Positions 36,748-60,930 of a stretch of 64,000 nucleotides of DNA are shown here, in pieces. The position numbers were made by a program, and so were the translations under genes. Each line of letters begins with the position of its first letter. Within the stretch, counting starts at the first letter, position 1. This stretch comes from Alphaproteobacteria bacterium (GTDB taxonomy: Bacteria > Pseudomonadota > Alphaproteobacteria > RF32 > CAG-239): NCBI GenBank assembly GCA_017626035.1, contig JAGAJR010000012.1, positions 124,001 through 188,000 on the forward strand, in the 5' to 3' direction. The notes under the pieces are model-generated. The model made no database searches. It was not told the origin of the DNA and worked only from the letters and a program-made list of their open reading frames with translations.

Positions 36748-36768
36748 TTGTTCATACACTTTCAAAAA

Positions 36769-36809
36769 AATGTCAGTAATTTTACAAATAAATTATTGAC
36801 ATTTTTTTT
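36769..36809 (+). terminator. terminator of rho
   Basis: A 14-bp stem, AATGTCAGTAATTT (36769-36782) with AAATTATTGACATT (36790-36803) and one G-U pair, runs into eight Ts, 22 bases after the rho stop. Confidence 0.9.
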
Positions 36810-36854
36810 GAAAAATAAAATAATCTTCTTCAGATTTTTTATAAAAAGGCACAA

Positions 36855-36977
36855 ATGAGAAAATTTGGTAACATATATCAAACTTCAGAAATGTTAAATG
36901 ACAAGCATTTAACATCATTTGTTGCTGTTTCCTTATCTTTTTTGCTTATTAACATTTTGCTCATTATGAGCCTCTAG
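36855..36977 (+). CDS. 40-aa ORF with a membrane helix, leader of the amidoligase locus
   Basis: ATG 36855 has AAAAGG six bases upstream. The peptide starts MRKFGNIYQTSEM and ends in a hydrophobic segment of about 21 residues (FVAVSLSFLLINILLIMSL). Its TAG stop lies inside the left arm of the hairpin 36971-37014. It could be a real small membrane protein or a translated leader; only coding-signature analysis in relatives could separate these. Confidence 0.5.
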   Translation: MRKFGNIYQTSEMLNDKHLTSFVAVSLSFLLINILLIMSL

Positions 36978-37014
36978 GCGTTTTCGTTCTAAATCAGCTT
37001 TGGACGCTTAGAGG
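36971..37014 (+). promoter_or_regulatory. hairpin spanning the stop of the 40-aa ORF
   Basis: CCTCTAGGCG (36971-36980) pairs with CGCTTAGAGG (37005-37014), with one G-U pair and a 24-base loop. Only a weak T run follows, so it may be a regulatory structure or a leaky terminator. Confidence 0.5.
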
Positions 37015-37064
37015 GTATTTTCAACAAACTGAGAATATTAACAAATTTCATAATGAGGAAAATA

Positions 37065-37148
37065 ATGAGTAATAATAATCAAAAATCTTTTAATTTTACC
37101 ACCTGCGGACAATTTTCAAAAACATTGATTCTGCTTACCAACCCTTGA
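37065..37148 (+). CDS. 27-aa ORF, possible leader or precursor peptide
   Basis: ATG 37065 follows a well-placed GAGGA. The peptide is Asn/Gln-rich at first (MSNNNQKSFNF), then TTCGQFSKTLILLTNP with a single Cys. The stop codon lies in the left arm of the terminator at 37142-37187, the arrangement of a transcription-attenuation leader. Being directly upstream of an amidoligase, a ribosomally made substrate peptide is an alternative. Reality of the gene is unproven. Confidence 0.5.
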   Translation: MSNNNQKSFNFTTCGQFSKTLILLTNP

Positions 37149-37187
37149 TTATTTTCGTAATTGGGTAATCAAGGGGGTTATTTTTTT
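37142..37187 (+). terminator. terminator or attenuator upstream of the amidoligase
   Basis: CCCTTGATTA (37142-37151) pairs perfectly with TAATCAAGGG (37166-37175), followed by GGTTA and seven Ts. It ends about 50 bases before the amidoligase ATG, so it either closes a small-ORF transcript or controls read-through. Confidence 0.75.
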
Positions 37188-37238
37188 GAAAATTACAAAA
37201 AACAATAATCACATTTTTCAAAAATTATAGAGGATACA

Positions 37239-38945
37239 ATGTTTCAACAAAATACAATATTTGATACGGTTTCAGAAGTAAAAGACACATTTGACGGTTA
37301 TTTTGAAATGACCGGAAGTAAGAATTTTAAGCAATTTTATTTTGATTGGCATATAGATGCCATGAGCCAGCCTTTTGCCGAATTAACAACCTATTTCTGT
37401 GAAAACTATAAAGAAGAAGCTCCTGAAAAATTCTCTGAATTTGTCAAAGAATTTAAAGAGCGAGTTTCAACTTATAATGCGGACGATCCGACAAACAGTT
37501 CTCTTAAATGCAAAGATTTTGCCGTAACCAAAGACGGTAAACTGTCAAAAATCATTGATGAAATAGAGAGTTTCAGCTTTCAATATCGTCAGTTTATTTA
37601 TTCTTTTGCCAGTAAAAAAGACCATGACAATGAATTTTGCAATTGGCCGATAAAAACAAATATGCCATATAGTCATCAACACGGATTAAATACGGCTTGC
37701 GGTATTTTGGATTATCTGGATAAGAATTTTTATTCTGTTCAAAATGCAGAAGACAAGGAAGATAAAACCAGATTTTTGACAGATGCTTATTTAAGAAAAA
37801 ACGTTGTCAAAGATTATAAATATAATCAAAATTATACTTATGCCAAAAGATGTGATTTTGTTCAAAAAGTATGTGATTTAAGAGAAAAATTAAGCCGGGA
37901 ATATCAACAAAATCAAAATAATGATAGCTTTGATTTTGTAAATATGTTCCAAAAGGAAACAAAATCGGGGGCTACCTTCGGACAATATACGCCGAATGGA
38001 TTTGAATTGGAATTTTATGTTCCTGAAAATATGGGCAATTATAGTGTGTTGATAGACTATTTAAAAAGTAAAAACGGCTGGAAAAACATCTATACCAGCA
38101 ATAAAAACGCAGATGTGTATAATGACGGAGATTCTGCCGGTGTGATAATGAGAGATGAAAGTTTAACTCCTTATAACCAGTTGGCACCTGTTGAATATGC
38201 TTCCAAAATAATGCGGTCAAAAGCCGATGAGCAAAGCTGTTTGAAACTTTTTGATTCTTTTGATAAAGGATTTGTAAATGTCCATTGTTCTCTGCATCAG
38301 CACGTTTCTGCAGCCGGATTGGATTTTAACGGCTATAAAAGACTGGTAAAAAGAATGATGCAGCATGAAAAATATATCGTTGATAATTTTGCCGCACCGG
38401 AACGTCGGGACGGAAGATTATTATATGCCACTTACATAAGCCATAATTTAAGCACAAATTCCCAAAGGGATTATCCTTTGCTTTGTGTTATGGTTGATAT
38501 GTGTGATAATAAAGACGAGCTGATTGATATGAGTTGTTTCGGGCATAAATACAAAACGCTGAATATTGTTCCGAAACATACGGTGGAGTTTCGTTTTATG
38601 AATGCTCACTTCAATAAGGAATTTGTTTCTGCCTTTTTGCAGTTTAACCGGGATATGGTTAACAGTGCCGTCAATAATGAAGGGACGCATATCAATCGTC
38701 CTTTAGCGAATAAATACAGTTGGACAAGAAATCGGGCGACAGATAATAAAACAGTTTATAAACCGCTGTTTTACTACTACGAACATAATTATGACGAGTA
38801 TCGTCCGCAAAAAACAGTTTCCAAAAAGACGATAGACGGTGAGCAAAGATATGCCCAATCTGTTGTTCAGGCTTTGACACAAACCGGAAAACTGCCTTAT
38901 GTTAATCCTGTGATGATGAAAAGGATGAAGGGCCATGCAAAATAA
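37239..38945 (+). CDS. putative amidoligase (glutamine-synthetase fold, PF12224-like)
   Basis: Amidoligases join amino groups to carboxylates using ATP, in peptide tagging or small-molecule synthesis. In this 568-aa protein the first 240 residues are of unknown type, largely helical and Lys/Glu/Tyr-rich. The core shows the expected order: GFELEF with Glu256/Glu258, a GVIMRDESL strand, VHCSLHQHVS with His353/His355, and TVEFRFMNAHFN with Glu450/Arg452. These match the metal/nucleotide-binding pattern of the family as I know it. AGAGG precedes the ATG. It overlaps the FGase-like gene by 11 bases. No signal peptide. Substrates unknown. Confidence 0.72.
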   Translation: MFQQNTIFDTVSEVKDTFDGYFEMTGSKNFKQFYFDWHIDAMSQPFAELTTYFCENYKEEAPEKFSEFVKEFKERVSTYNADDPTNSSLKCKDFAVTKDGKLSKIIDEIESFSFQYRQFIYSFASKKDHDNEFCNWPIKTNMPYSHQHGLNTACGILDYLDKNFYSVQNAEDKEDKTRFLTDAYLRKNVVKDYKYNQNYTYAKRCDFVQKVCDLREKLSREYQQNQNNDSFDFVNMFQKETKSGATFGQYTPNGFELEFYVPENMGNYSVLIDYLKSKNGWKNIYTSNKNADVYNDGDSAGVIMRDESLTPYNQLAPVEYASKIMRSKADEQSCLKLFDSFDKGFVNVHCSLHQHVSAAGLDFNGYKRLVKRMMQHEKYIVDNFAAPERRDGRLLYATYISHNLSTNSQRDYPLLCVMVDMCDNKDELIDMSCFGHKYKTLNIVPKHTVEFRFMNAHFNKEFVSAFLQFNRDMVNSAVNNEGTHINRPLANKYSWTRNRATDNKTVYKPLFYYYEHNYDEYRPQKTVSKKTIDGEQRYAQSVVQALTQTGKLPYVNPVMMKRMKGHAK

Positions 38946-39663
38946 TAATTTTAAAATAATAAATAAGGATTCCAAGCAATCTCTGATTCTCACTTGTGAG
39001 CACGCATCTGAGAAAATACCTGAGGAATACAATAATTTGGGATTAGAAAAAAAATATTATGACACGCACATCGCCCGGGATAAAGGTTGCGGAAAATTAA
39101 CGGAGCTTTTAGCGGAAAAACTGGGCGTTACGGCATTTATAGGCGAATATTCCAGATTGTTGGTAGATTTGAATCGCCGTGAAAATGAAGAAGAATTGAT
39201 TGTAAAAGAAAGCGATAAAATCACGATTCCCGGAAATGCGGATATTTCGCCGGAAGAAAAGGAAAAAAGGCTGTCTGTTTATTATCGTCCGTATCATCAG
39301 GCAATTGAGAATAAAATTACCGAATTAAAAAAGGCGGGAATAACGCCGCGGGTTTTTTCCGTCCACGGGTTTACACCGCAGCTGCAAGGCGGAAGTTATC
39401 GTCCTTGGAATGCCGGAATACTTTATTTGGAAGAAAATCCTCTTGTAAATAAAGTAAATCAACGAATTTCAGAATTTAAAAATTTGGTTGTCGGGCAAAA
39501 CGTCCCTTATGATTTACGGCGTTATAAAACCGGAGCATCCGTCGTTCACGGAGCTGAAAACAACCTGGAAAACTGCCTGATTGAAATTCGTGATGACGAG
39601 TTTGACAACCTGGAAAAAGGCGTTGCCAAATGGTGTGATATTCTGGCTTATGCTTTAGCCTGA
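38935..39663 (+). CDS. N-formylglutamate amidohydrolase-like (FGase family) protein
   Basis: A 242-aa FGase-fold enzyme: LILTCEHASEKIP (about 16-28), HIARDKGCG (about 48-56), FSRLLVDLNR-type strand (YSRLLVDLNRRENEE), VFSVHGFTP (about 141-149) and IEIRDDEF near the C-terminus. Family members hydrolyse amide bonds of N-acylated acidic amino acids. It is translated with the amidoligase, so one may build and the other may break or edit an amide bond (inference). Its 3' end overlaps the convergent HAD gene by 16 bases. Confidence 0.88.
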   Translation: MQNNNFKIINKDSKQSLILTCEHASEKIPEEYNNLGLEKKYYDTHIARDKGCGKLTELLAEKLGVTAFIGEYSRLLVDLNRRENEEELIVKESDKITIPGNADISPEEKEKRLSVYYRPYHQAIENKITELKKAGITPRVFSVHGFTPQLQGGSYRPWNAGILYLEENPLVNKVNQRISEFKNLVVGQNVPYDLRRYKTGASVVHGAENNLENCLIEIRDDEFDNLEKGVAKWCDILAYALA

Positions 39664-60739: not shown

Positions 60740-60765
60740 AAAAAATCTTCTGTTTAACGTTAAGG

Positions 60766-60855
60766 TGGAGAGCAATCGACCCCGGCAAATTCCGTTACGG
60801 CTGCTTCCTTCCGAACCTGACCGGATTGGCGGATTGCCGGCCCGAAGCCCTCCAT
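60766..60855 (-). ncRNA. ffs: signal recognition particle RNA (4.5S, small bacterial type)
   Basis: Read on the minus strand, the highly conserved Ffh-binding segment GTCAGGTTCGGAAGGAAGCA (about 60823-60804) is present, with the GGAA tetraloop and the symmetric/asymmetric internal loops. The ends pair: GGAGGGC (60853-60847) with GCTCTCC near 60773-60767, and GCCGGCAA with TTGCCGG. The RNA is about 88 nt, so it lacks the Alu domain. It lies just upstream of dnaX on the same strand, as in other Alphaproteobacteria. Confidence 0.92.
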
Positions 60856-60930
60856 GAAAATCTATTCCTCAATATCGTCGAAATTCGCTTATTTTTCAAG
60901 GAAAAAATTCATAATTAACATGATGTCCGA

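Follow-up and report, generated by a model that had tools for sequence, protein, structure and literature searches.

Introduction

In ribosome-mediated attenuators, a short leader peptide enriched in certain residues is encoded ahead of metabolic genes, and the stop codon of this peptide lies in the first RNA stem. The leader that we describe here has the same arrangement, and metabolic genes likewise lie downstream of it. It differs from the attenuators in that it forms an H-type pseudoknot instead of alternative hairpins, has no conserved terminator, occurs in places as tandem units, precedes genes other than those of branched-chain biosynthesis and belongs to no Rfam family.

The enzymes behind the leader also have counterparts in operons that have been described before. 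RimK/RimB and RloC/RloA of Pseudomonas each bring together an ATP-grasp ligase and a protease in one operon (PMC12239564), and in the NAGGN operon (asnO-ngg-peptidase) the enzymes for a dipeptide osmolyte stand beside a peptidase gene (PMC8070244). By analogy, these operons are precedents for the pairing of a ligase with a hydrolase, although the Pseudomonas ligases are accompanied by aspartic proteases, which are unrelated to the hydrolase families found here, and the NAGGN operon consists of other enzymes and is controlled by a MarR-type repressor. The PF12224 operons of other alphaproteobacteria likewise encode a predicted amidoligase of the glutamine synthetase (GS) fold; the two neighbouring partners that were run against Pfam are Peptidase_C26/GATase proteins, and this is an amide hydrolase family too.

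Organisation of the locus

The stretch of DNA analysed here, which we call the window, comprises 64,000 nucleotides of contig JAGAJR010000012.1 from an uncultured member of the alphaproteobacterial order RF32. Its region 36855-39663, correctly delimited by the original prediction, contains two tiny ORFs followed by the gene of an amidoligase and that of an N-formylglutamate amidohydrolase-like (FGase-like) enzyme. A sigma-70-like promoter, TTGACA-17-AATAAT, precedes them at 36796-36824 on the forward strand and matches at 11 of 12 positions. Judging from the sequence, a single transcript that runs from this promoter through two leader units, each built around one of the tiny ORFs, into the amidoligase and FGase genes is the best explanation of this layout. 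The promoter overlaps the rho terminator hairpin (36766-36806, fold z -4.8), with the TTGACA box lying within the 3' arm of the hairpin. Neither the promoter nor the pseudoknots and the shared leader described below were part of the original prediction. Elsewhere in the window, a bacterial small SRP RNA (Rfam RF00169) is found at 60761-60856 on the reverse strand.

The amidoligase and its hydrolase partner

The amidoligase (37239-38945, forward strand) is 568 residues long. Its core, residues 299-473 (38133-38657), matches PF12224 as had been predicted, with 30.3 bits against a cut-off of 22, and aligns to positions 72-244 of the 245 in the profile; several relatives span positions 6-244, and all 23 relatives that were aligned match the family. 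By this membership the enzyme is predicted to be a GS-fold amidoligase. A search of the PDB with its AlphaFold model (pLDDT 78.5, pTM 0.82) gave no significant fold match; glutamine synthetases and gamma-glutamylmethylamide synthetase were among the best matches, yet weak, with E > 0.1. The helical domain that makes up residues 1-240, which the original prediction had been unable to place, indeed matches no known family and is modelled as all-helical. An enzyme of this family would couple an amine to a carboxylate in an ATP-dependent reaction.

The amidoligase is present in 24 of the 153 genomes of the order. In a scan of 84,980 species, with one genome each, close relatives (at least 51% identity) were found only in uncultured Alphaproteobacteria or proteobacteria, and several of these records come from rumen or gut. 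Upstream of one amidoligase locus (L032) lie genes that resemble Cas9 (1002 aa), Cas1 and Cas2 by the start of their sequences.

The FGase-like amidohydrolase (242 aa, 38935-39663, forward strand) matches PF05013 at 111.9 bits, passing the gathering threshold and covering profile positions 2-216 of 219, and it matches the solved protein PDB 2odf with an E-value of 1.2e-28. By sequence it belongs to the family that includes HutG and 2odf (Atu2144), but it is not a HutG, because its score of 32.7 bits with the HutG equivalog TIGR02017 is far below the cut-off of 278.75. Its gene overlaps that of the amidoligase by 11 nt, and in most of the relatives that were measured the FGase start overlaps the ligase stop. 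The original prediction would have fallen if the enzymes were not neighbours in relatives; an FGase gene stands directly behind the amidoligase gene in all 24 amidoligase-bearing genomes. The FGase would hydrolyse the amide made by the amidoligase, or a similar one, and the pair would thus make and unmake a small amide, which may be an N-acyl amino acid or a dipeptide-like solute.

The PF12224 frames of other alphaproteobacteria are mostly 310-410 aa long and score strongly with PF12224; the protein of the window has 568 aa, a helical N-terminal domain and an FGase as its partner. None of the loci sampled elsewhere in the class matches the profile of the present amidoligase subfamily, and no FGase relative was found within 1.5 kb of them. 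Since the two neighbours tested there are Peptidase_C26/GATase proteins, the amide hydrolase partner appears as a recurring theme whose family varies.

A translated leader peptide

The first tiny ORF (sORF1, 36855-36977, forward strand) encodes the leader peptide of unit 1, which is 40 aa long and has a hydrophobic C-terminus rich in Leu and Ile. An ORF of 37-42 aa with a hydrophobic end was found beside every homologous amidoligase that has its complete upstream region on the same contig. The original prediction had pointed to conservation of both tiny ORFs beside homologous amidoligases as worth checking; this holds for the 40-aa ORF but not for the 27-aa ORF, which is absent from the other amidoligase loci that were compared.

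Length (40.4 +/- 1.6 aa), position and C-terminus of the sORF are conserved in 38 leaders, and the N-terminal half of the peptide is nearly unconserved. Between close pairs, pN/pS is 0.34 and 40 of 76 changes fall at codon position 3, an excess that marks a translated peptide under purifying selection. Leu and Ile make up 60% of the last 18 residues and Val 2%, whereas the corresponding shares are 37% and 13% in the other membrane-like segments that these loci encode; the leaders are mutually related, so that the P value for this enrichment overstates their independence, and a membrane peptide together with common ancestry could account for it. An exact TTGACA lies upstream of the sORF in 36 of the 38 leaders, and the best promoter score reaches at least 10 of 12 in 30 of them, as against 11% of shuffled sequences.

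A stop codon built into a pseudoknot

The stop codon of sORF1 (TAG, 36975-36977) lies in the 5' strand of an RNA stem whose loop pairs with sequence further downstream, which gives an H-type pseudoknot (PK1). On the forward strand, stem 1 (36971-37014) pairs 36971-36981 with 37004-37014, and stem 2 (36994-37032) pairs 36994-36997 and 36999-37002 with 37025-37032, with one bulged C. Stem 1 of the window comprises 11 pairs with a fold z of -3.8, and the covariance model R2 matches here with an E-value of 3.9e-11; the 8-bp stem 2 with its one bulge was read by eye and by homology and does not reach significance by itself.

The comparison of 33 leaders from all cassette types shows stem 1 to be 99.7% paired and stem 2 89% paired. 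These leaders contain 131 doubly changed cells; the mean of shuffled alignments is 42.3, none of 500 shuffles reaches as high a count, and controls in which the pairing was slid reach at most 36. Double changes occur in all 10 pairs of stem 2 across the leader family, and in 14 pairs within the amidoligase leaders alone (23). The register in which CTC is followed by the stop is the same in 35 of 38 leaders, with TAA, TAG and TGA all in use; in L031, L039 and L043 the stop codon, as read by eye, lies just before the stem and not inside it.

A compact H-type pseudoknot of conserved geometry ahead of metabolic enzymes could also be a ligand-binding, riboswitch-like RNA or a binding site for a protein, with the sORF as an incidental standby reading frame. 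We hold this to be improbable. The sequence of stem 2 changes freely between genera, so that no conserved binding core is evident. A model with only a ligand does not call for conservation of the stop register and of the peptide, yet both are conserved. Nor did Rfam yield a gathering-score match at the leaders, where weak matches appear only at relaxed E-values.

Four unrelated cassettes behind one leader

Among the 153 genomes of the order, the leader covariance model has 48 strong matches in 43 genomes, and it has no match in about 380 other alphaproteobacteria. Every strong match in the order precedes one of four cassette types: the amidoligase with its FGase (24 genomes), an orphan protein of 611 aa (11 genomes), an ATP-grasp enzyme with a deacylase of the AstE/AspA type (7 genomes) or a GNAT protein with an M20 deacylase (1 genome). 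Profile comparison detects no homology or shared domain among the three large cassette enzymes. The 611-aa family, detected with strong E-values in 11 of the order's genomes and with highly conserved motifs (for example at L106:5109-6941, reverse strand), has no match in Pfam, NCBIfam or the PDB and no recognised enzyme fold; an S66 LD-carboxypeptidase stands behind it in 6 genomes, and 5 of its 11 loci are without a hydrolase partner. For the ATP-grasp enzyme of the sister cassette, the best NCBIfam equivalog is the L-aspartate-L-methionine ligase LdmS; the score of 25.5 bits is far below the cut-off of 475 bits, and only the ATP-grasp motif region aligns.

In three of the four types, an enzyme recognisable as a ligase or transferase is accompanied by an amidohydrolase or a peptidase, which speaks for the idea, put forward in the original prediction, that such enzymes make and unmake an amide. 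The probable task of the cassette enzymes is to form a small amide and to cleave it. None of the eight proteins encoded by the four cassettes has a meaningful match to a PADLOC defence model, and an anti-phage defence system was rejected for this reason; a phage origin was rejected as well, as none of the three large enzymes is found in viral contigs.

Several ATP-grasp loci show features of their own. In L169, L170, L171 and L172, where the ATP-grasp genes are more distant relatives in another genus, the gene has a different, well conserved leader without the pseudoknot, with a short ORF beginning MMNIEILHIES (slightly different in L172). A very short ORF precedes the ATP-grasp genes in L163, L164 and L166 together with a pseudoknot-like structure (CCTTTTAAGCA / TGCTTAAAAGG, GGGAAGC / GCTTCCC) of another sequence, which escapes the model. 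A second ATP-grasp paralogue lies downstream of the ATP-grasp/AstE pair in L111 and L112, and a weak leader match (E 0.02) precedes such a second paralogue in G127.

The strict association of leader and cassette bears on a further explanation, in which each sORF is an independent gene for a toxin-like or membrane peptide with a stabilising 3' structure and the enzymes are mere neighbours. The sORF does have its own promoter and its own ribosome site, and its hydrophobic peptide ends in a membrane-like segment. Yet no strong leader match in the 153 genomes is without an enzyme cassette close behind it, and the distance from the sORF stop to the enzyme start stays within 92-116 nt wherever there is a single unit; we regard an independent peptide gene as very unlikely.

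The leader and its cassette lie between rho and the HAD and mnmE genes in the window, and the same slot is occupied in genomes with each of the other cassette types. In many relatives it is empty, with rho followed directly by HAD and mnmE. The leader of the window is closer to the leaders of other enzymes in this slot than to those of other amidoligases: a start region AAGG.CACAAATGA is common to it and the GNAT locus, and a stem CCTCTAGGCG is common to it, the GNAT locus and one ATP-grasp locus. This resemblance suggests that cassettes have been exchanged behind a resident leader.

The second leader unit

The second tiny ORF (sORF2, 37065-37148, forward strand) encodes 27 aa, has a GAGGA ribosome site before its ATG and forms a second leader unit. 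Its stop codon lies within the stem of a pseudoknot (PK2, 37142-37196, forward strand, fold z -3.9) that has the same design as PK1: stem 1 pairs 37142-37154 with 37163-37175, and the loop GUAAUU (37157-37162) can pair with the downstream AAUUAC (37191-37196) as stem 2. In four loci of another genus (L106, L108, L109 and L110) the sORF of a second unit has the same position, and L106, L108 and L110 have the same two helices, with changes in stem 1. According to the covariance model, ATP-grasp loci also carry tandem leader units, and the peptides of tandem units are very different from one another.

The PK2 hairpin also scores as a terminator, and in the window a U-run stands behind it, so that hairpin and U-run could end transcription. 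As a conserved terminator, the hairpin (37142-37175) was rejected, since the U-run is not common to homologous second units. With regard to the origin of the 27-aa ORF, both it and the amidoligase gene begin with ATG-A(G/A)T-AAT-AAT; its reading as the remnant of an old amidoligase start was dropped once other cassettes proved to have second leader units that carry this pseudoknot. An insertion from elsewhere in the genome was also rejected, given that bases 37033-37238 have no second full copy.

The original prediction had offered the 27-aa peptide as a possible substrate of the enzymes. This was rejected on account of its absence beside other amidoligases, and the ORF is part of a leader unit whose stop codon lies in a pseudoknot. 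The same question arises for the 40-aa peptide, which might itself be the product, a small membrane peptide modified by the amidoligase or its analogues and trimmed by the hydrolases in the manner of a RiPP or of peptide tagging, the pseudoknot merely protecting or pacing the mRNA. The purifying selection on the peptide and its fixed length fit such a role, as does the constant place of the tiny ORF in the transcript unit of an amide-forming or orphan enzyme; amidoligases are, moreover, known for peptide modification, to judge by the title of Iyer et al. 2009, cited in PMC12239564. We nevertheless consider a peptide product unlikely: peptides of one kind stand before unrelated enzymes without regard to enzyme type, the N-terminal half of the peptide is nearly unconserved, tandem units differ strongly in their peptides, and a substrate role gives no reason for a stop codon in a covarying pseudoknot. 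The place of the 40-aa ORF before unrelated enzyme pairs favours regulation over a substrate role, and the two tiny ORFs are probably two leader units and not enzyme substrates.

Proposed mechanism

We put it at slightly better than even that the enzyme pairs are interchangeable, make and cleave an amide, and are controlled by a leader that senses translation. The leader would be a cis-regulatory device that senses the passage of the ribosome over the Leu/Ile-rich end of the sORF. Stem 1 of the pseudoknot contains the stop codon and would therefore have to be unwound by a ribosome that arrives at this codon; a ribosome that is held several codons earlier, or is absent, would leave the pseudoknot folded. 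The enzyme genes begin about 100 nt further downstream, and their output would then depend on the state of the pseudoknot. The Leu and Ile residues that account for 60% of the last 18 codons before the stop-containing stem 1 are putative control codons, and the signal may be Leu/Ile or the nascent peptide.

Set against the attenuators, the leader has its candidate control codons directly before the structure that the ribosome would open, as the Leu/Ile codons run up to a stem that contains the stop. No alternative fold that would terminate transcription or cover the ribosome site was found, either among terminators or in nested folds: no conserved terminator follows the pseudoknot across the leaders, and the ribosome site of the enzyme genes is not clearly masked (mean unpaired 0.58 versus 0.62 in nested folds with or without the 5' strand of stem 1). 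Masking of the ribosome site was rejected as the output step, since the nested folds show no consistent difference. Simple reinitiation at the enzyme start was rejected too, because the gap of 92-116 nt exceeds the reported peak distance of 10-16 bp (PMC4833913).

Significance

We see an even chance that these elements constitute a new leader class, in which four unrelated and interchangeable cassettes are under the control of a Leu/Ile-rich peptide of fixed length that has its stop codon within an H-type pseudoknot. If this is true, a leader RNA that uses a stop codon as the hinge of a pseudoknot would be a design not found in Rfam. Most of the cassettes would make and cleave an amide, and a single sensor would govern unrelated enzymes that were recruited time and again for one physiological task; four unrelated enzyme pairs under one signal would be strong evidence that they do equivalent work. 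The leader would thereby offer a route to the function of the amidoligase/FGase operons and of the 611-aa family in uncultured gut and rumen bacteria.
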